NCBI GenBank assembly: GCA_030272785.1
Contig: JARXKM010000013.1
Span: 4,445 to 40,193, forward strand
DNA: 35,749 nucleotides
Direction of reading: 5' to 3'
DNA from: Pseudomonadota bacterium
GTDB lineage: Bacteria > Pseudomonadota > Gammaproteobacteria > Burkholderiales > Burkholderiaceae_D
This document shows, piece after piece, positions 1,828-29,175 of the stretch. Positions within the stretch are counted from its first letter, which is position 1; each line of letters opens with the position of its first letter. The position numbers and the translations under genes are program-made. The notes beneath the pieces were generated by a model. That model saw only the letters and a list, made by a program, of their open reading frames with translations. It had not been told where the DNA came from and searched no databases.

Positions 1828-1874
1828 GAAAGTTAATATAATTACAAAAATTGATCGTCGCACGGAACCCGATA

Positions 1875-3164
1875 ATGAAATTTAATGACATCGTAGCAGT
1901 GGTAGGACTTGGGTATGTCGGCATGCCGCTGGCCGTGGAATTTGGAAAAAAACGCACCACCGTCGGGTTTGACCTGTCCAGCGCCAAGGTAGAGAGTTAC
2001 CAGCAGCATGTGGATCCGACCGGTGAACTGTCGGGAGAGCAGTTGCGGGCGGCGCGCCATCTGTCGGTCAGCACCGACCCGGCCACCCTGGCGAACGCCG
2101 ATTATATTGTGGTGGCGGTGCCGACCCCGGTCGATGCTGCGCATAACCCCGATTTCACGCCGCTGGCCGGCGCCAGCAAGACGGTCGGCCTGCACATGAA
2201 GCGCGGCGCCATCGTCATTTTCGAGTCCACCGTCTATCCGGGTGCGACCGAAGAAATCTGCATTCCGATTTTGGAACAGCACTCGGGCCTGAAATGGCGG
2301 CAGGATTTCCACGTCGGCTTTTCGCCCGAGCGGATCAATCCGGGCGACAAGGAACGGACCCTGACGACGATCACCAAAGTGGTCTCCGGCGACGACGCCG
2401 ACACGCTCGACCTGGTGGCCACGCTGTATGAGTCGATCATCACCGCCGGCGTGCACCGCGCCTCCAGCATCAAGGTGGCGGAAGCGGCGAAGGTGATCGA
2501 AAACACCCAGCGCGACCTGAATATCGCCCTGATGAACGAGTTGGCGATCATTTTCGACAAGATCGGCATCGATACGCTGGAAGTATTGAAGGCGGCCGGC
2601 ACCAAATGGAATTTCCTGCCGTTCCGGCCTGGCCTGGTCGGCGGCCATTGCATCGGCGTCGATCCGTATTACCTGACGCACAAGGCGGAAATGGTCGGCT
2701 ATCACCCGCAGGTGATCCTGGCCGGGCGCCGCATCAACGACGGCATGGCCAAGTTCGTCGCCGAAAAGACCGTGAAGACCATGATCGCCGCCGGTTTCAA
2801 CGTCAAAGGCTCGAAAGTGAACGTGATCGGCCTGACGTTCAAGGAAAACTGTCCGGACCTGCGCAATTCGAAAGTGGCCGACATCGTCTTTGAATTGCGT
2901 TCTTACGGTGTTGATGTGCACGTCTACGATCCGGTCGCTTCGGCCGCGGAAGCGCTGCATGAATACGGTATCGCGCTGACCAGCTGGGAAGACCTGCCGC
3001 GCGCCGATGCCCTCATCGCCGCCGTCTCGCACAAGGAACTGCTGGCGCGTCCGCTGACGGACCTGCAAGCGAAACTGAACGAGGGCGGCTGCTTCATCGA
3101 CGTCAAATCGCAATTCGACCAGCAGGCGATCAGCGCCGCCGGTTTCAGCGTCTGGCGTCTGTAA
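1875..3164 (+). CDS. tviB: UDP-N-acetyl-hexosamine 6-dehydrogenase (TviB/WbpA-like)
   Basis: This is an NAD-dependent UDP-sugar dehydrogenase, 429 aa, the usual length. It should oxidise C6 of UDP-GlcNAc or UDP-GalNAc to the uronic acid for the polysaccharide. The N-terminal Rossmann motif [10 protein letters not shown] comes within the first 20 residues. The central domain has ESTVYPG and [14 protein letters not shown], and the active-site block [11 protein letters not shown] places the catalytic Cys at residue 259. [11 protein letters not shown] marks the C-terminal UDP-binding domain. From memory it resembles Vi-antigen TviB more than UDP-glucose dehydrogenases. A TTG 24 nt upstream (1851) is in frame. 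I chose ATG 1875 because the MKFNDI start matches the family and leaves room for the promoter at 1799-1827; an ACGGA ribosome site is weak. The partner epimerase follows after 56 nt. Confidence 0.93.
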
Positions 3165-3220
3165 CCGATCGCAACAGCGGCGCACGCACGCGCCGGATGG
3201 TAGAACAATGGGAAAGCACA

Positions 3221-4261
3221 GTGACGAAATTTAACGACATCCAGCACCACCTGCGCGAGCACCGTTACCACTGGCTGGTGACCGGCGCGGCCGGCTTCAT
3301 CGGCTCGAACCTGGTGGAGGCCCTGCTCAAGCTCGATCAGCGCGTTACCGGGCTGGATAATTTTGCCACCGGCCACCAGCATAATCTCGACCAGGTGCAG
3401 GCGCTGGTCGGTGCCGAGGCGTGGCAACGCTTCAGCTTCATCGACGGCGACATCCGCCGGCAGGACGACTGCGCGCACGCCTGCGCGGGCGTCGATTTCG
3501 TCCTGCACCAGGCCGCGCTGGGGTCGGTCTCGCGCTCGATCGCCGACCCGATCGCCACCAACGAAACCAACGTCACCGGTTTCCTCAACATGCTCACCGC
3601 CGCGCGCGACGCCAAGGTGCGCCGGTTTGTCTACGCCGCCTCCAGCTCGACCTACGGCGACCATCCGGCCCTGCCGAAGCAGGAGCCGGTGATCGGCAAT
3701 CCATTGTCGCCGTATGCGGTGACCAAATATGTCAACGAGCTGTACGCCAACGTGTTCGCGCGCACGTACGGCAGCGAATCGATCGGGCTGCGTTATTTCA
3801 ATGTGTTCGGCCCGCGCCAGGATCCGCACGGCGCCTACGCCGCGGTGATTCCGCTGTGGATCGCCGCGCTGATCGGCAACGCGCCGCTGAAGATCAATGG
3901 CGACGGCGAGACCAGCCGCGACTTCTGCTTCATCGACAATGTCGTCCAGGCGAACCTGCTGGCCGCGCTGGCCGACCAGCCCGGCGCCGTCAACGAGGTG
4001 TACAACGTCGCCGTCAACGCCCGCACCAGCCTGAACCAGCTGCACCGGATGATGTGCGAACTGCTGCAGGAGCGCTTCCCGCATGTGCGCACCCACCAGC
4101 CCGAATATGTCGGCTTTCGCGCCGGCGACGTGCGCCATTCGCAAGCCGATATATCGAAAGCGGCGACGCTGCTCGGCTTCGCGCCGACCCACCGTATCGA
4201 CGAGGGCTTGCGGCAGGCCATGGATTGGTATATCCATGACCTGACAGGCGAGAACACATGA
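3221..4261 (+). CDS. tviC: UDP-N-acetylglucosamine 4-epimerase (TviC/WbpP-like)
   Basis: This is an extended short-chain dehydrogenase/reductase, 346 aa, that interconverts the C4 epimers of UDP-HexNAc or its uronic acid, supplying GalNAc-type precursors with TviB. It shows the NAD motif GAAGFIG (residues 22-28), [13 protein letters not shown], an SSSTYGD block near residues 141-147 and the catalytic YAVTK (Tyr165, Lys169). [14 protein letters not shown] and [11 protein letters not shown] are typical of WbpP/TviC. The start is set at GTG 3221, giving MTKFNDI, because family members begin about 18 residues before the glycine motif and GGGAAAG lies close upstream. An in-frame ATG at 3197 lacks a good ribosome site. 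The stop at 4259-4261 is followed by 88 nt with only very short open frames before the sugar transferase. Confidence 0.93.
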
Positions 4262-9366: not shown

Positions 9367-10755
9367 ATGCGCGTGGCCAGAGCCGTTTTCGTGCTCACCG
9401 GCGCGATGCTGGCCGCGCTGGCCGCCGCCGGCCTGCTCATGCTCGACCGGCACGGGGTGAGCCCCGCCGCGCTGGCCTTCCACTTGGGAACCGACAGCGG
9501 CACGGCGACGCGTTGGACGCGCCAGGCGCTGCTGCGGCTGGACCGGCCGCCGCCGGTGCCGCTCGCGCTGGATCGGCTGTCGTTCGGCGCGCGCGCCATC
9601 GCCGCGGCGGCGCCGGCTCCCCTGCGCGAAGTGGCCGCCGCAAACCTGGCGGCCTTGCGCAGCGCGATGGCGCAGGCGACGCCGGGCGACCGCATCACGC
9701 TCGCCGCGGGGGTCTGGCGCATCGGCCAGGTGCCGCTGGCCGCCTCCCGTGCGGGCACCGCGTCGGCCTACATCACGGTACGCGGCGCGCCCGGCGCGCG
9801 CCTCGACGTCGACGGCGCGCAAGGGTTTCTCGTCTCCGCGCCGTTCTGGCGTTTCGAGCAACTGGTGATGCGCGGCGTGTGCGCGCGCCACGCCGATTGC
9901 GAGCATGCCTTCCACGTCGTCGGCGACGCCCATCACTTCAGCGCGCAGGGCAATACCATCACCGATTTCAACGCCCACCTGAAGATCAACGGCCATGGCG
10001 GGCGCTTCCCCGACAGCGGCACCATCGACGGCAACCGGCTCACCAACAGCGCACCGCGGCGCACCAGTTTGCCGGTGACGCCGATCGACCTGGTCGGCGC
10101 CAGCGGCTGGACCATCCGCCACAACCTGATCGCCGATTTCATCAAGGAAGGCGGCGACTACACCAGCTACGGCGCGTACGCCAAAGGCGCCGGCGCGCAC
10201 AACGCGTTCGAACAGAACATCATCTGGTGCGAGCACCTGCTGCGCGCTCGCCCGGGACTGCGGGTCGGCCTGTCGCTCGGCGGCGGCGGCACCGAAGCGC
10301 GCTTTTGCCGCGACGGCAGATGCATTGTCGAGCAGGAGGACAGCCGGGTGGCGGCGAACCTGGTGGCGTCCTGTTCGGCCGATGGCATCTATCTCAACAG
10401 TGCGGCGCGCAGCACGGTGCGCCACAACACGCTGGTCGGCACCGGCGGCATCGTCCTGCGCTATCCGACCAGCAGCGCCGACGTCGAAGGCAACCTGCTC
10501 GACGCGCCGATCCGTGCGGGCGACGGCGCCATCCTGCGCGCCGTCGACAACCGCACTGCGCCGCTGGCCTACCGCTATTTTGGTGCCCATGCGCTGGCGG
10601 ATGTGCTAGGCGCCGACATGGCGTGGCGTGGCGCGCCGCCGCGGCGGTCCGCGGCCGGCGCGGCGCCGCCCGACCTGTGCGGCGTGGCGCGTCCATCATT
10701 GCCCGCTTACGGCGCGTTCGAGGAGTTTTCCGCCTGCCGCGCCGGCACCCGCTGA
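9367..10755 (+). CDS. Secreted or anchored right-handed parallel beta-helix protein, possibly polysaccharide lyase/epimerase-like
   Basis: A protein of 462 aa with one N-terminal hydrophobic segment (about residues 5-25) that is either a signal peptide or a membrane anchor. After a proline-rich stretch, ALRSAMAQATPGDRITLAAGVWR is typical of the cap of parallel beta-helix proteins such as chondroitinase-B/PL6-like enzymes. Repeated short strands ending in asparagine follow (GNTITDFN, GNRLTNS, HNLIADFIKEGGDYTSYG, EQNIIWCEH, AANLVASCSADGIYLN, RHNTLVGTGGI). It may trim or bind the polymer in the periplasm. A perfect AGGAGG stands 5 nt before ATG 9367. Its last 49 bp overlap the 3' end of the convergent gene at 10707-13133. 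Lyase activity is inference: I cannot identify a certain catalytic Lys/Arg pair. Confidence 0.8.
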   Translation: MRVARAVFVLTGAMLAALAAAGLLMLDRHGVSPAALAFHLGTDSGTATRWTRQALLRLDRPPPVPLALDRLSFGARAIAAAAPAPLREVAAANLAALRSAMAQATPGDRITLAAGVWRIGQVPLAASRAGTASAYITVRGAPGARLDVDGAQGFLVSAPFWRFEQLVMRGVCARHADCEHAFHVVGDAHHFSAQGNTITDFNAHLKINGHGGRFPDSGTIDGNRLTNSAPRRTSLPVTPIDLVGASGWTIRHNLIADFIKEGGDYTSYGAYAKGAGAHNAFEQNIIWCEHLLRARPGLRVGLSLGGGGTEARFCRDGRCIVEQEDSRVAANLVASCSADGIYLNSAARSTVRHNTLVGTGGIVLRYPTSSADVEGNLLDAPIRAGDGAILRAVDNRTAPLAYRYFGAHALADVLGADMAWRGAPPRRSAAGAAPPDLCGVARPSLPAYGAFEEFSACRAGTR

Positions 10756-13133
10756 GCCGCCGGTGCGGCCGCGCGGCGAACATGGCGCGCCGCCGGCCGC
10801 GTTGCGTGCGCCGGACGCAGAGCCGCCGCGCATGCCACCAGGAAGAACAGCAGGGTCAGGCGCGGCACGTCGAACAGGCTGTCGAACGCGCCGATGCAAA
10901 GAAAGCCGGCCAGTGCCGCCAGGTAGACGGCCGCCATGTCTTCGCCGTCGATGGCGCGCAGCACCAGGTCGGCGCCGAGATAGAGCAGCAGCAGCGCCAG
11001 CGCCGTCAGGCCGGCCCAGCCCTGCTCGAAAAACAGGTTGACCGCGACATTCTTGATATGCCACGGCATGTGGTCATGATCGCTGCTGAAGAACCAGGCG
11101 GTGTTGGCGCGGGCGAAATCACCATTGCGCAACAGGTCGGCGCCGCCACCCGCCGGGCGCAGGCTCACATTTGCGACGTCGATCGTCATGGCGGCGCCCT
11201 GCAGCGAAAATTCCAGTTGCACCGGACGCAGGTTCAGGTGGTCCGCCGGCACCGTCAGTGCGGCCTCGTAGTGGGTCCAGCCCGGGGCGCCGGATTTGCC
11301 CAGCGGCGCCGCGACACAGGCCTGCGAATACAGCATCCAGCGTTCGCACAGCGCGAACATGACGATGCCCTTGCCTTGGTGCGGCCGGATGTCGGCGCCC
11401 AGCCGGTAGCTGGCGCCGGCGACGACATCGACCCGCTGCAGCAGGCGCACCACTTGGTCGTGGCCGATTGCGTGCTGCGGCGCGCCGAGGCGCAGGAACG
11501 GCTTGCCGGCCTCGGCTTCGTAGCGGAAGGAACCGGGCAGCTCGCCGTTCCAGTTGCGCGCAGTGTAGACGTCGGGATAGCGTCCCAGTCCCATGCCGAA
11601 CAGGGCGGTGGGGCTATCCTGATCCATCATGCCGACCGCTTCGCGCCAGTGACGCAGGCGCATGTCGATGTCGGTGCCCACCGTGGCGAAGCGCTCGCCC
11701 ATGAAGTAACTCGAGGACAGCGGGATCACCGTGATCATGGCGATGGCCGCGCACAGCAGCGCGGTCAGGCTGGTGCGGTCCAGCCGCACCAGCGGTTCGG
11801 CGCGCAGGCGGCTGGCCGCCAGGCCGGCGGCTGCCAGCAGCGCGACGGCGGCGATATCGGCCGCGGCGCCGCCGCCGCCCCAGTGGAAGGCGACCAGTCC
11901 GGCGCCCAGCGCCAGCGCGGGCAACGCGGCGGCGGCAAGCGCGGCGCCGCGCCGGCGCGCGACCATCGACACGGCACCGGCGCCGAACGCGGCGGCGGCG
12001 ATGGCAAAGCCGAGGTAGGCGCCCTTGTCGACCCGGGCGGCCAGCAGTGCCGTCGTGGCCAGCAGCAGCAACGCCGCGCCCGCCACCAGCGGGCGGCGCG
12101 CCAGCCGGCCCGGCGCGCCCGCCAGCACGAAGCTGGCCGCCAGCAGCGTCAGCGCGCACGCCAGGCCGCGGTAGCCGCCGCTGGCGAACACGCGCGCCAG
12201 CGTCCAGCCGGTGACGGCCAACAGCGCGGCGATGGCCAGCGCGCTGCCGGCATGCAGCCGGCCGTGCCGCGCGCGGCGGGCCAGCAGCAGCGCACCGACG
12301 ATCGCGCCCGACATCCCGTAGGCAACATAGATGTCGCGCGAAAACAGCGCCAGGCCCGCGTAGCTGCCCAGCAGCAGTAGCAGCAGTCCGGCCGCCAGTT
12401 CAATCCGGGTGCGCGGTCCGACCAGCCAGGCGGCGACGAACGGGAAGCTCAGCGCGAGATAGGCGTCGAGCGCGGCGCCGCCGGTGTGCATCGCCGAAAA
12501 CATCCCGGTCGGCCGGTAGTCGCTGGCGAAATTGCTCAGCCCGGGAAACAGCGCGCGCTCGGTCATGACGGCGATGGCGGCGCCGGCCAGCCCGAGCAGC
12601 ATGCCGGGCACGAACAGGCGCCGCAAGGACGCCAGCGCGGGGCCGGCGCCGCGCTGCAGCAGCGGCAGCAATAGCAGCGCCCAGGCCAGGCCCTTGGCGG
12701 TGCGCACACTGTTGTAACGGCTGGAATACGAGGCGAAGGCGTTGGCGTCGAGCGGCGCGATCGGGGTCGCGCCGATCCAGGCGGCGATCAGCCAGGCGGC
12801 CACCACCAACCCGAGCGACCAGGCGAACAACGGCGGCAACGCCGCGGGGCGGTCGTCGGCGCCGATGCGCGCATAGCCGACGGCGCAGGTTGCCAGCAAC
12901 AGCAGGTCAAGCTCGTCGAGATAGTACCAGCCGGTCCATGGTGCCAGGTCGAGCACCGGCAGCAGCGCCGGCACGGCGATCAGCCAGGCATGCGGGCGCC
13001 ACCACAGCAAGGCGCAGTAGGCGCACAGCGACACCGCCAGCAGCGCCTTGTCGAGCGGGTACAGCGCCGCCGCGCCGGCAAGGCCGGCCAGCAGCAGCGC
13101 GGCGGCGCATTTCGCCACAGCGGGCCGCATCAT
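10707..13133 (-). CDS. Wzy/O-antigen ligase-like membrane protein with an inserted carbohydrate-binding-like domain
   Basis: At 808 aa this is nearly twice the usual Wzy length. The first 480 or so residues hold many membrane helices. A soluble region at about residues 530-690 follows. It shows the opening SFRYEAEAGKPFLRL, VDVVAGASYRLGADIRP, GWTHYEAALTVPAD and LLRNGDFARANTAWFF, the look of a CBM4/9-like beta-sandwich. Membrane helices then resume after HIKNVAVNLFFEQGW, which resembles the His/Asn-rich periplasmic motif of O-antigen ligases. The C-terminal 45 residues are Ala/Arg-rich and overlap the neighbouring convergent gene. The start ATG 13133 overlaps the stop of the TPR gene (ATGA), so the two are translationally coupled. 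Likely role: polymerisation, or ligation of glycan to an acceptor, in the inner membrane. This role is inferred. Confidence 0.8.
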   Translation of the reverse strand: MMRPAVAKCAAALLLAGLAGAAALYPLDKALLAVSLCAYCALLWWRPHAWLIAVPALLPVLDLAPWTGWYYLDELDLLLLATCAVGYARIGADDRPAALPPLFAWSLGLVVAAWLIAAWIGATPIAPLDANAFASYSSRYNSVRTAKGLAWALLLLPLLQRGAGPALASLRRLFVPGMLLGLAGAAIAVMTERALFPGLSNFASDYRPTGMFSAMHTGGAALDAYLALSFPFVAAWLVGPRTRIELAAGLLLLLLGSYAGLALFSRDIYVAYGMSGAIVGALLLARRARHGRLHAGSALAIAALLAVTGWTLARVFASGGYRGLACALTLLAASFVLAGAPGRLARRPLVAGAALLLLATTALLAARVDKGAYLGFAIAAAAFGAGAVSMVARRRGAALAAAALPALALGAGLVAFHWGGGGAAADIAAVALLAAAGLAASRLRAEPLVRLDRTSLTALLCAAIAMITVIPLSSSYFMGERFATVGTDIDMRLRHWREAVGMMDQDSPTALFGMGLGRYPDVYTARNWNGELPGSFRYEAEAGKPFLRLGAPQHAIGHDQVVRLLQRVDVVAGASYRLGADIRPHQGKGIVMFALCERWMLYSQACVAAPLGKSGAPGWTHYEAALTVPADHLNLRPVQLEFSLQGAAMTIDVANVSLRPAGGGADLLRNGDFARANTAWFFSSDHDHMPWHIKNVAVNLFFEQGWAGLTALALLLLYLGADLVLRAIDGEDMAAVYLAALAGFLCIGAFDSLFDVPRLTLLFFLVACAAALRPAHATRPAARHVRRAAAPAAQRVPARQAENSSNAP

Positions 13134-13777
13134 TTGGCCGGCGCGTCATCCCATTTGCCGACCGCCTTGAGCTGGTTCTTCAGACCCGGCAAGGGGAAGC
13201 CGAGTCCGTACGCCTTCTTCGCGTAGGCCAGCGCCTGGTCGTACTTCTTCGCCTTCATCGAGGCGAGACCGGCATTGTAGTTGATGATCGGATTGTCCGG
13301 TTCGAGGTCGACGGCGCGCAGGAATTCCGCGTTGGCCTGCTCGGTCTTGCCATGCGTGGCCAGGTGGTTGGCATACACCGCGTGCACCATGCCGTCGTCG
13401 GGCGCAAACGTGATGGCGCGCAGGAAATAGCAGTCGACCGGGTAGTTGGCCCCGCGCACCTGCGGCGCTTTCTCGATCACCCCCTGGCGCGACATGGTGG
13501 CCAGCGCCCGGGGATGATTCGGCCAGGCCCGCAGCGTGTAGTCGACGTCACCGCCCACATACCCGGTTTTTCCTTTGATATTTTGCTCGACCTCGGTGGT
13601 GAAGTGCGCGCCCTCGACAATGTTGATCTCATAAGGAAGCAATGGTGCCTTCCGATAATCGAACGGTCCGAAACCGTTTTTCAGCTCGCCGCAAATCTTG
13701 ACCGGGCCCTGCGCGTAGCTGTTGGCACCGGCGATCATGCCGAGCGTTACTGCAAAATAGGCCAATCTGCGTGTCAT
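13130..13777 (-). CDS. Exported TPR-repeat protein of the EPS cluster (215 aa)
   Basis: The start is set at ATG 13777, with GGAG 6 nt upstream; a TTG further up is less likely. The N-terminus MTRRLAYFAVTLGMIAGANSYAQ is a clear Sec signal peptide with cleavage after AQ or nearby. The mature part begins with about 100 residues containing two widely spaced Cys, one in VKICGEL and one in PVDCYFL, which could form a disulfide. Two tetratricopeptide repeats follow (VHAVYANHLATHGKTEQANAEFLRA and NPIINYNAGLASMKAKKYDQALAYAKKA regions). It probably acts as a periplasmic scaffold. Its stop overlaps the start of the Wzy-like gene by 4 nt, which suggests that the two proteins work as a pair. I do not know a named family. 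Confidence 0.82.
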   Translation of the reverse strand: MTRRLAYFAVTLGMIAGANSYAQGPVKICGELKNGFGPFDYRKAPLLPYEINIVEGAHFTTEVEQNIKGKTGYVGGDVDYTLRAWPNHPRALATMSRQGVIEKAPQVRGANYPVDCYFLRAITFAPDDGMVHAVYANHLATHGKTEQANAEFLRAVDLEPDNPIINYNAGLASMKAKKYDQALAYAKKAYGLGFPLPGLKNQLKAVGKWDDAPAK

Positions 13778-13871
13778 CGCCAGCTCCAAAGGTTATACCG
13801 AAATGCCAACATGGCAGGAATCATGCACTTTTCTATGGCGGGAAGCAATCGTGCCGATCGCGCGCACCCGC

Positions 13872-17020: not shown

Positions 17021-18328
17021 TTAGGAGGATGACCTCGCCGCGTGGGCGACGAGCGGTGCGGGGCGGGCTGTGGCGGGCAGCAATTTACTGCCGGTGGCGG
17101 CGAGTTCCTGTTCGACCAGGCGGCCGGTGACGACCATGATCGCCATCAGATAGTACGGCACGTCGAAATACAGCAGGCTGAGGAAGGCGCCGCCGGTGCC
17201 GAAGCCGATCATGCTCACTTGCAGCATGGTCGCCAGGGTCGCCGCCCATTTCAGGTCGGGCCGCAGCGCCGTCGACTTGACGATCCTGGTGCCGGTGCGC
17301 CACACCTGCAGCCCGAGCAGCAGGTACAGGGCCAGCCCGACGAAGCCGTGTTCGCCCAGCACCTGGAAGTACAGGCTGTGCGCGGCGTGAATATCGGTCG
17401 GCACCGGCGCGTAGCGGGCGAAAGTGGACTCGTCATATATGTCGAAGCCACCGCCCACCAGCGGCCGGTCGGATGCCAGGTTGAACGTCATCGTCCATGC
17501 GTTGATGCGGCCCTGGGCCGAATCGTCGGACTTATACTCCTTGACCGAATCCATGCGCTGCATCCATTGGGCCGGCATGAACGCCAGCGCGGCCGGGATG
17601 ACCAGCACCATGATCAGCCCGAGTTTCGCCTTGTGCGCACTTTTCAGCCACAGGAACAGTACCATTGCCGAGATGCCGAGCATGGCGCCGCGCGAATAGG
17701 ATCCGATCGCCGCCATGGCGCACAGCACGGTGGCGGCGCCGAGCGCGTAGCGATGCCAGCGCTTGGTCGCCTCGAGGAACAGATAATAAAAGACCGGGAT
17801 GACCGTGATCAGGCCGAGCGCGATTTCGTTATTGCCTTCGATGAAGGTGCCTTCCGGACCCCACACCCGGAAACTGCCGCCGCTGAGGACGGTGAATGCG
17901 CCGCCCTTGACGCCGTAATAGCCGAGCGAGCCGACCAGTACCCAGATCAGCAAGTGGATCTGGCGCTTGGTCTTGACCACCATCAGCGTCACGCCGGTCA
18001 TCAAGGCGATCTTCAGGAAGCGCATCAGCAGTTCGGTGGTCGGATGCAGCGCGAACAGCTCGCCGAACGCCATCCAGAACGTCAGCGCGAAAAAGGTCGC
18101 CACGACGGGCGTGAACGGCAGCCGCTTGGGATCCTTGGTAAACAGCACCCCGGCCAGCGTGACGCCGGCGATGATGGCGGCGAACGGGAAATCGTAGGCG
18201 AAGCCCCAGCTGAGGCGGTGCGGGTTCATCACGCTCATCCAGACCCACATGAGGACGCCGATGTACGGCCGCTTGAAGGCGAACGGCAACGAAGCGAACA
18301 CGATCAGGGTGATGATGATGTCTCTCAT
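17021..18328 (-). CDS. Putative O-glycosylation ligase, exosortase A system-associated
   Basis: A membrane protein of 435 aa with about ten to twelve helices, in the Wzy/WaaL superfamily. It matches the exosortase A-linked putative O-glycosylation ligase family (TIGR03097 from memory). Distinctive blocks include WVWMSVMNPHRLSWGFAYDF, VWGPEGTFIEGNNEIAL and IGSYSRGAMLG. The periplasmic motif AHSLYFQVLGEHGFVGL carries the His conserved in O-antigen ligases. It could transfer the EPS to sorted PEP-CTERM proteins or polymerise it; direct proof is lacking for the family. The start is ATG 18328 with a weak GAGTG. It is the first gene of the minus-strand unit and is divergent from the AMP-ligase gene. 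Confidence 0.92.
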   Translation of the reverse strand: MRDIIITLIVFASLPFAFKRPYIGVLMWVWMSVMNPHRLSWGFAYDFPFAAIIAGVTLAGVLFTKDPKRLPFTPVVATFFALTFWMAFGELFALHPTTELLMRFLKIALMTGVTLMVVKTKRQIHLLIWVLVGSLGYYGVKGGAFTVLSGGSFRVWGPEGTFIEGNNEIALGLITVIPVFYYLFLEATKRWHRYALGAATVLCAMAAIGSYSRGAMLGISAMVLFLWLKSAHKAKLGLIMVLVIPAALAFMPAQWMQRMDSVKEYKSDDSAQGRINAWTMTFNLASDRPLVGGGFDIYDESTFARYAPVPTDIHAAHSLYFQVLGEHGFVGLALYLLLGLQVWRTGTRIVKSTALRPDLKWAATLATMLQVSMIGFGTGGAFLSLLYFDVPYYLMAIMVVTGRLVEQELAATGSKLLPATARPAPLVAHAARSSS

Positions 18329-27633: not shown

Positions 27634-29175
27634 CTAGCGCCCCCGGGTGGCGGCCAACGCGGTGTCGATCGGCGCCAGGTGGGCGGCGAGGAAGGCGCGC
27701 AGCGCGGTGCGCGCCTGGTCGGGCTGCTCGATATACGGCGCCGACAGCATCACCGCGGCGCCGTCGTCGCCGCGCCGCATCAGCTTGGCGCGCGCCTGCA
27801 GCAGCTTGCCGCCGGCGCTGCTGACAGCGCGCTGCTGGTCGATCCAGTACCAGTACCAGACCAGGAACGGACCGTCGCGGCCTTGCATACGCACTTCGCG
27901 CACCTGCAGTGGCTGACCTCCCGGCGCTTCGCTGCGCACGGCGCTGCCGGCCTGCTGAAACCCGTTGTCCTCTTCGGCGGCCATCGTGTTGATCGAACTG
28001 ATCAGGGACTTGGCGCTGTTCTGGTTGCGGTAGTACAGGATCGTCAGCGCCACCGGCGGGGTGCCGGGCACGGCCTGGGTGACGCGGTTGACGGCGGCGT
28101 CGGCGGCCATGAAGTTCGGCTGCCAGCTCGAGAAGGCCGGCGCGGCCGGCCAGCTGAGCGCGACCGGTGCCAGCGCCACCGGACGGGCGTTGTAGTTGGC
28201 CTGGTCGTTGAAGTGCGCCAGCGCCGGCCACAGCGCCGTCAGCGCCAGCACCGCCAGCGCCATGTTGCGCGGCGCCGCGCGCGCGGCCGGCGCCGCGCCG
28301 CCATTGAGCTGGCGCGGCGCGGCCGCCTCGTCCTCGCGCCAGTAGCTGCCGATCCAGAACATGACGAACATCACCAGGCCGAAGAACAGCCAGCCGTAGA
28401 TCAGGTGATCGACCCCGGTCGCCAGTTTCATGTTGCTCAGGTGGCCGATCATGACGATCATGTAGGCACGCAGGCCGTTGGCGATCACCGGCACCACGAT
28501 CGACAGCGCGACGAACAGCAGGCGCCGGGCGGTCGAGCGGTAGGTCAGGTAGGCGTACAGGCAGCCGATGGTGACCGAGGAAATCAGGTAGCGCACGCCG
28601 CTGCAGGCGTCCACCACCGACCAGCTGCCGGTGGGCAGTTCGAAGCGGGTGCCGTTGCGCAGGACCGGGATGCCGGTCAGCTGCACCGCGCGCACGGTGA
28701 AGTCGGCGGTGAACTGGATCAGCGGGCCGACGAAGATTTCGCCGAACGGCACCGCGAACAGCAGGAACAGCAGCGGGAAGGCGAGCGAGCCGGCCAGCCG
28801 GCGACCCAGCAAGGCCAGAGCGATCAGCGGCAGCATCGCCACGAAGGCGTACTGGGTCACCACCTGCACTTCGCCGGCGCGCGCCAGCAGCCAGCCGGCG
28901 CCGGCCAGCGCCAGCAGCACCAGCGCCGGCCAGTACGGGGCCGGCGGCAGGGCGGTGAAATTGGCGCGCCGGCGCCAGATCAGCCACAGGCTGATCGGCA
29001 TGATGATGTAGCCGTGGGCGAAGGTCTCCGAGCTGTTCCAGATCGACACGATCGACTGGACGGTACCGAAATACAGCGCGAACGGCGCCAGCAGCGCCAG
29101 CACCATGAGCGCAATGACGGCGGGCGACAGGCGCGGTGTGGCGTTCAGCACGGCGGCAGGAGGGGTCAGGTACAT
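27634..29175 (-). CDS. xrtA: Exosortase A (XrtA/EpsH) fused to an EpsI domain
   Basis: This is the transpeptidase that recognises PEP-CTERM tails of exported proteins and cuts them in the inner membrane. The 513-aa product has about eight membrane helices in residues 15-275, with the catalytic Cys191 in DACSGVRY, Arg236 in NGLRAY and His257 in GVDHLIYGW, the conserved exosortase set. After a linker (about 280-300) one more membrane helix leads into a soluble C-terminal domain of about 200 residues. That domain matches EpsI (SWQPNF, LTILYYRNQNSAKSLISSIN, VWYWYWI). EpsI is a separate protein in some EPS loci and fused in others. The start ATG 29175 overlaps the upstream glycosyltransferase by 10 nt. 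No PEP-CTERM substrate was found in the window. Confidence 0.95.
   Translation of the reverse strand: MYLTPPAAVLNATPRLSPAVIALMVLALLAPFALYFGTVQSIVSIWNSSETFAHGYIIMPISLWLIWRRRANFTALPPAPYWPALVLLALAGAGWLLARAGEVQVVTQYAFVAMLPLIALALLGRRLAGSLAFPLLFLLFAVPFGEIFVGPLIQFTADFTVRAVQLTGIPVLRNGTRFELPTGSWSVVDACSGVRYLISSVTIGCLYAYLTYRSTARRLLFVALSIVVPVIANGLRAYMIVMIGHLSNMKLATGVDHLIYGWLFFGLVMFVMFWIGSYWREDEAAAPRQLNGGAAPAARAAPRNMALAVLALTALWPALAHFNDQANYNARPVALAPVALSWPAAPAFSSWQPNFMAADAAVNRVTQAVPGTPPVALTILYYRNQNSAKSLISSINTMAAEEDNGFQQAGSAVRSEAPGGQPLQVREVRMQGRDGPFLVWYWYWIDQQRAVSSAGGKLLQARAKLMRRGDDGAAVMLSAPYIEQPDQARTALRAFLAAHLAPIDTALAATRGR

Follow-up and report, generated by a model that had tools for sequence, protein, structure and literature searches.

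Wzy-CBM is an 808-residue membrane protein encoded on the reverse strand of a 35,749-nucleotide stretch, hereafter the window, from a Pseudomonadota bacterium (assembly GCA_030272785.1, contig JARXKM010000013.1, positions 4,445 to 40,193). By the profile of its family it is a protein of the Wzy_C (PF04932) superfamily, and between the GN1 and GN2 motifs of its Wzy_C domain it carries an insert that is predicted to be a beta-sandwich resembling carbohydrate-binding modules (CBMs). Overall, we propose a putative role for this protein, to which we assign a probability of about one half, as the repeat-unit polymerase (Wzy) of an exopolysaccharide linked to exosortase A (XrtA). Wzy-CBM would polymerise the lipid-linked repeat units of this exopolysaccharide. 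The CBM4/9-type beta-sandwich, seated in the last large periplasmic loop of the catalytic domain, would, next to the active site, bind either the chain being made or the lipid-linked acceptor repeat, and it would hold the chain between rounds of addition, thereby raising processivity or setting chain length. In one clade, a tetratricopeptide repeat (TPR) protein would be a plausible periplasmic scaffold. The gene and its parts, from the N-terminal to the C-terminal side of the protein, are as follows.

10707..13133, reverse strand: Wzy-CBM, Wzy_C/O-antigen-ligase-type membrane protein with a CBM-like insert, 808 amino acids; family assigned from homologs
12477..12518, reverse strand: N-terminal loop motif YR...MHxGG, residues 206-219 (55-protein alignment)
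12336..12341, reverse strand: SR motif, S265-R266 (55-protein alignment)
11784..12236, reverse strand: variable membrane block, residues ~300-450, missing from shorter members
11589..11660, reverse strand: GN1-type motif R492-X20-G513-x-G515, N-terminal to the insert; read from the sequence with the motif definition of PMC12502699
11082..11552, reverse strand: predicted CBM4/9-like beta-sandwich insert, residues 528-684 (AlphaFold2, Foldseek, VIA-align, profile search)
11058..11081, reverse strand: DHDHMPWH segment, residues 685-692, C-terminal to the insert (55-protein alignment)
11010..11054, reverse strand: GN2-type motif K694-N695-X9-G705-X2-G708, with the usual His replaced (55-protein alignment)

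The assignment to Wzy_C came through homologs, since the window protein by itself matches nothing in NCBIfam and gives only a chance-level Pfam match (E 0.68). When 15 family members were scanned with PF04932, nine matched, two of them over the cut-off of 31.7 (L046, 38.8; L138, 32.1) and seven below it, and six, including the window protein, gave no match. For an hhalign comparison with 23 ordinary Wzy_C proteins, the family profile was stripped of its first 20 residues and of the middle block. With the insert kept, 317 columns were aligned (98.0%, E 1.4e-13) and the alignment stopped about 30 residues into the insert; after residues 524-684 were removed, it ran through 399 columns to the C-terminus (99.3%, E 1.6e-20). 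The ordinary proteins are the 23 of 30 loci (L094-L123) that were kept by a filter demanding H[NS], so that they are biased towards the canonical motif; L094 and L114 represent the same gene twice, and two loci each come from several of the genomes. The original prediction of a Wzy/ligase family protein was supported by homologs, PF04932 matches and profile alignment.

The same prediction had placed a CBM-like beta-sandwich at residues 530-690 (LLRNGDFARANTAWFF), numbers that proved correct. An AlphaFold2 model of residues 495-717, calculated from an alignment of five rows only, gave a beta-sandwich rather than disorder or a membrane domain. Its mean predicted local distance difference test score (pLDDT) is 66.9; the ten-residue blocks of model positions 41-180 score 66-91, apart from one block at 51, and both ends are poor. 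VIA-align ranked 4mgq, the CBM4/9 of the GH10 xylanase PbXyn10C, first (Z 11.5, root-mean-square deviation 2.9, 132 aligned), with a second row at Z 10.8 that is tied with it under the rule of the tool; CBM4 modules scored Z 10.0-10.8, and further beta-sandwiches such as meprin reached Z 9. Foldseek gave 28 matches at E<=0.001, with TM-scores by query length of 0.27-0.44; the titles of 21 name CBMs or binding domains, and among the others are glycanases, a Cry protein and a phage tailspike. In our view, the strongest argument for CBM likeness is the sequence match to 4mgq: the insert profile matched this chain in the PDB at E 5.8e-9 (next row, 0.26), and the whole-family profile matched it as its sole PDB chain (E 1.8e-7). 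Pfam CBM_4_9 weakly matched three of 27 insert-bearing members (E<=1; best 0.0072), the window member not among them, and CBM_4_9_1 weakly matched four of the 27. In L080, a weak CBM_4_9 match below the cut-off (836-894) stands directly behind Wzy_C (724-833) in the same protein. Model, structural searches and profile match together upheld the earlier claim of a CBM-like fold.

Canonical CBM4 modules carry the NGxF...W segment on the N-terminal side, as the construct primers of the xylanase Pm25 likewise suggest, and the insert carries it on the C-terminal side. A circular permutation was considered and was not proved; the order in 4mgq is identical to that of the insert. The CBM of 4mgq is presumably itself an insert. 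Its host is a soluble hydrolase, whereas that of the Wzy-CBM insert is a membrane protein, and the cysteines C596 and C606 of the insert are unmatched as a pair in the two alignments with 4mgq, one of which has a Cys in the column of C606. Two CBM4 modules, CBM4-1 and CBM4-2, interrupt the xylanase catalytic domain of Pm25 (PMC7848910), as the insert interrupts Wzy_C.

For the conservation set, 55 proteins were collected by searches with the full protein or with its profile, so that the set is biased towards insert carriers. Left out of it were duplicates (L001, L002, L089, L091, L092), broken frames (L005, L048, L049), a protein at a contig end (L054), ordinary Wzy_C proteins (L051, L052), genomes G266, G255, G278, G249 and G005 (partial), and L135-L138. 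The insert is present in all 55 aligned homologs, so that its acquisition probably dates back to the ancestor of the family. Six insert residues (Q566, C596, C606, N670, F673 and W680) are invariant, as are R207, M215, R266, R481, D488 and R492 of the core; H216 is kept in 53 of 55. Across identity bins, the identity of the insert ranges from 7.5 points below to 0.9 above that of the core; this tracking speaks against a dispensable decoration. The middle membrane block varies, and shorter members lack it.

Ordinary members of the Wzy_C superfamily share with Wzy-CBM the polytopic core, the SR motif, GN1 and, except for its His, GN2. The insert lies between GN1 and GN2. The GN1 pattern, RX(11-24)GXG, is present, with R492, G513 and G515 found in 55/55. 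In ordinary Wzy_C proteins, the nearest G.G stands 20-37 residues ahead of the GN2 His in 21 of 23 (L102 has 10, the next at 26; L122 has none), whereas G517 and W691, landmarks that differ slightly from those, are 169-201 residues apart in the Wzy-CBM family, which thus has ~140-170 extra residues at this point. Among 59 PF04932 matches in 20 relatives, those reaching the end of the profile span at most 573 bases, and hence an insert of this kind is absent from all of these; G070, which gave the only Wzy-CBM of the 59, has a match that ends at profile position 113 of 149. The same fusion, for which the original prediction had proposed a search in other Oxalobacteraceae, is thus shared by the aligned homologs, and the ordinary Wzy_C proteins measured are without it. 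In pneumococcal Wzy23F, the capsule was lost when either GN1 or GN2 was deleted and also with the GN2 change G322A, whereas no GN1 alanine change tried had this effect; the authors did not exclude misfolding (PMC12502699).

By hydropathy, membrane segments extend to about residue 472 and are followed by a hydrophilic stretch (473-706, 234 residues) and three further segments. Because three segments lie C-terminal to the insert and the tail holds six Lys/Arg against one Asp/Glu, the insert is probably an extracytoplasmic loop, and its invariant cysteine pair would fit a periplasmic disulfide. The periplasmic location suggested earlier is accordingly a probable one.

Judged by its profile matches, the surrounding cluster is an XrtA/PEP-CTERM exopolysaccharide locus. 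It holds XrtA (TIGR03109) and TIGR03016, together with PrsK, PrsR, hydrolases 1 and 2, TIGR03097, TIGR03013, TIGR03087, TIGR03088, FemAB, a TIGR03006 deacetylase, an ATPase, an acyl-CoA ligase and a decarboxylase, all over their cut-offs. An initiating transferase and glycosyltransferases over cut-offs are included, and one further gene is weakly like TIGR03108 amidotransferases. Three features matter here.

27634..29175, reverse strand: exosortase A (XrtA), TIGR03109 over cut-off
17021..18328, reverse strand: ordinary Wzy_C putative ligase of the XrtA system (TIGR03097), our comparison protein
1851..4261, forward strand: genes for a TviB-like nucleotide-sugar dehydrogenase and a TviC-like epimerase, repeatedly found near Wzy-CBM

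With the part of ligase assigned to TIGR03097, that of polymerase is still free for Wzy-CBM. Of 294 genomes searched in the family of the source organism, 55 gave matches, and Wzy-CBM is present in 53 of these, the source genome included; the other two (G171, G182) hold ordinary Wzy_C proteins and were excluded. TIGR03097 scored over its cut-off in 52 of the 53 Wzy-CBM genomes, compared with 124 of the 294 overall (Fisher p 5e-22, a value that ignores relatedness), and in none of 14 well-known genomes searched as a control. Thirty-seven pairs of Wzy-CBM and TIGR03097 genes share a contig, at a distance of up to 51 kb in 36 pairs and of 156 kb in the last, and 15 are on different contigs. TviB/TviC-like genes, whose scores stay under the NCBIfam cut-offs set for TviB and TviC, accompany Wzy-CBM on the same stretch in 15 of the 32 loci shown; among the 15 is a second copy of the window locus. 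From these genes, an N-acetylhexosaminuronic acid would be expected in the polysaccharide.

CBMs have been described in glycosyltransferases of the GT-C type. EmbA/B/C, AftD and ORF12/GT136 combine, as we propose for Wzy-CBM, a membrane glycosyltransferase, a lipid-linked sugar and an extracytoplasmic CBM; the CBMs of EmbC, AftD and ORF12 contact the polymer, which for EmbC and AftD is the acceptor polysaccharide, and when the EmbC CBM is mutated, arabinan is reduced in both amount and length (PMC11127046). The enzyme family is different, and the CBM of ORF12 and EmbC is C-terminal (PMC11127046), whereas that of Wzy-CBM lies inside the Wzy_C domain. CBMs on GT-C enzymes are known, and so are CBMs that interrupt a catalytic domain. 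What appears to be new is a CBM inside a Wzy_C domain: no description of a Wzy with a CBM was found in the literature searched, which misses most subscription journals.

Several observations weigh against the proposed role. GN2 departs from the full HNX9GX(2-4)G pattern, as no member of the 55 has His at position 694, which is Lys in 45 and Glu, Asp, Leu or Phe in the others. The remainder of GN2 is kept (residue 695, Asn in 43 and Ser in 12; G705, 55/55; G708, 53/55), and a His two residues ahead of the usual position, H692, is found in 51/55, with H688 in 52/55 and W691 in 53/55. A His motif typical of ligases had been predicted; a His is indeed nearby, and K694-N695 stand in place of His-Asn. 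Foldseek placed 4mgq only at rank 46 (E 2.8e-3), and Q566 is aligned with a Pro of 4mgq. The position equated with the ligand-binding Tyr of the inserted xylanase CBM (563) is Tyr in only 11 of 55 and Arg in 41. The whole-protein model, for which six alignment rows were available, was poor (pLDDT 51.4; predicted TM-score 0.36) and was not used; it therefore does not give the place of the CBM over the active site. The loop of residues 726-735, which the proposed topology puts inside, has one Lys/Arg against three Asp/Glu. Seventy-two of the 124 TIGR03097 genomes in the family sample show no Wzy-CBM match, and Wzy-CBM is hence not the general XrtA polymerase. As for precedents, ORF12 could do without its CBM in the conditions examined, although this CBM binds the polymer (PMC11127046), and xylanase catalysis was intact after CBM4 excision (PMC7848910). 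By analogy, an EmbC-like effect and an ORF12-like dispensability are both possible for Wzy-CBM. The reading of R563 as a sign of an acidic polymer was dropped: the Tyr-bearing loci L043, L045 and L046 also have TviB/TviC-like neighbours.

The partners of Wzy-CBM vary between clades. Two genes adjoin it in the window.

13130..13789, reverse strand: TPR protein with a signal-peptide-like start (by eye); ATGA overlap (13130-13133) with the Wzy-CBM gene
9367..10755, forward strand: right-handed beta-helix protein, convergent with Wzy-CBM and overlapping its 3' end by 49 bases

The ATGA overlap is as originally described, and the suggested TPR partnership held in one clade: the gene is directly upstream in both own copies and in 10/10 best-scoring loci (L006-L015), and it was not found in the flanks of 19/19 loci of the next genus group (L016-L034) or at the seven short-form loci L035-L041. 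Related TPR genes occur elsewhere near Wzy-CBM in L045, L085 and L137. The TPR partner is thus real but clade-restricted. The beta-helix protein was rejected as a conserved partner. PF13229 is present in 28 of 38 Wzy-CBM genomes and lies within a few kilobases of Wzy-CBM only in the source genome; the nearest case outside it is G070, at ~32 kb. A separate beta-helix family, to which the beta-helix protein of the window has no detectable relation, adjoins Wzy-CBM in L004, L135 and L138 and is fused to it in L137, four loci only, so that this partnership is not general either. In L137 (4207-7779), a single frame of 1190 amino acids joins Wzy-CBM, a signal-peptide-like segment and a beta-helix domain (PF13229 below cut-off). 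N-terminal VanZ domains were detected by Pfam in nine of 15 members (L042, L044, L045, L080, L081, L083, L084, L087, L138), whose open reading frames have 1062-1147 amino acids and two or three VanZ stretches each; a link between VanZ-1 domains and genes for exopolysaccharides has been described (PMC12419801).

Other functions can be imagined for the protein. As a ligase, Wzy-CBM would move finished chains or repeats to an acceptor, with the CBM recognising the chain or the acceptor. PF04932 spans both ligases and polymerases, the XrtA ligase (L094) is among the alignment partners of the Wzy-CBM core, and glycan-to-protein transfer in exosortase clusters can be conjectured; we nevertheless regard a ligase as unlikely, given that 52 of the 53 genomes already have the putative TIGR03097 ligase, and because the GN2 His is missing in 55/55 we do not file the protein as a WaaL-type ligase. 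We also doubt that the CBM fold has lost sugar binding and now only supports the structure or docks a Wzz-type co-polymerase, the TPR protein or VanZ domains. It is true that the likely ligand Tyr is mostly replaced by Arg, that the most conserved residues (the cysteine pair, NGxF and W680) look structural, and that a shared fold is no proof of function. However, the TPR partner is clade-restricted whereas the insert is universal in the alignment, and the invariant Q566 lies three residues past the Tyr/Arg position, which is the Y-x-x-Q spacing of Y213/Q216 in Pm25, if the equivalence that we infer is right. In CBM4-1 of Pm25, Y213A abolished binding and Q216A diminished it (PMC7848910).

A checkpoint, in which the CBM reads a modification (deacetylation, amidation or epimerisation) or chain length and admits or stops extension, has a precedent at export in the Wzt CBM (PMC11127046). 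The deacetylase, the amidotransferase-like gene and the beta-helix gene of the cluster would suit such a role, as would the beta-helix fusion in L137. No modifying neighbour was seen family-wide, however, and the beta-helix family of L137, with its four loci, has no detectable relation to the beta-helix protein of the window; we hold a checkpoint to be very improbable. Returning to the repeat-unit polymerase, we speculate that a Wzx/Wzy-pathway enzyme may here work like a processive synthase complex, in a hybrid of Wzy-dependent and alginate-type assembly. The chain would be gripped at the active site, as it grows, by the CBM of the catalytic loop, and on emerging it would be modified or cut by partners in the periplasm (TPR scaffold, beta-helix enzyme, VanZ domains), which in some cases are fused to the polymerase. 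Such a hybrid is an unlikely extension of our proposal.

Whether Wzy polymerases hold onto the chain is not settled; going by the title of a 2014 paper by Zhao et al., the O-antigen polymerase is reportedly distributive. If our proposal is true, Wzy-CBM offers a natural, excisable polymer-gripping module in a catalytic loop, and the question of processivity becomes testable by deletion or swap. Additionally, the family gives a sequence handle on XrtA exopolysaccharide polymerases, of which the window protein would be one that has neither an NCBIfam nor a meaningful Pfam match.

Beyond the family, a class-level search of 275 genomes gave seven strong matches besides the source genome (G525, G376, G417, G407, G501, G301, G390), each from another family, and 20 further weak partial matches that stand outside the family counts. 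A scan of named genomes with short peptide patterns, which is no census, gave three relatives, one each in a metagenome-assembled genome of Rhodocyclales, of Azonexus and of Propionivibrio. No match to Wzy-CBM was obtained in the plasmids and viral contigs searched. In a phylum search for other hosts of the insert, five of 348 genomes matched, and the matches not already known (L135-L138) are Wzy-CBM. In L082 (4678-7941), Wzy-CBM is extended at its C-terminus by ~440 residues, which to the eye resemble a secreted segment and have no Pfam match at E<=0.01. A Propionivibrio homolog (L005, 5935-8388) is split over three frames, possibly through sequencing error. The source genome, when searched for the insert, gave two copies of the Wzy-CBM gene only. 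Contig C36 of the same genome bin holds a second copy of window positions 1726-35747, with 99.94% identity over 34,025 aligned bases, 14 mismatches and four gap openings; it probably reflects strain variation or assembly, not two loci.

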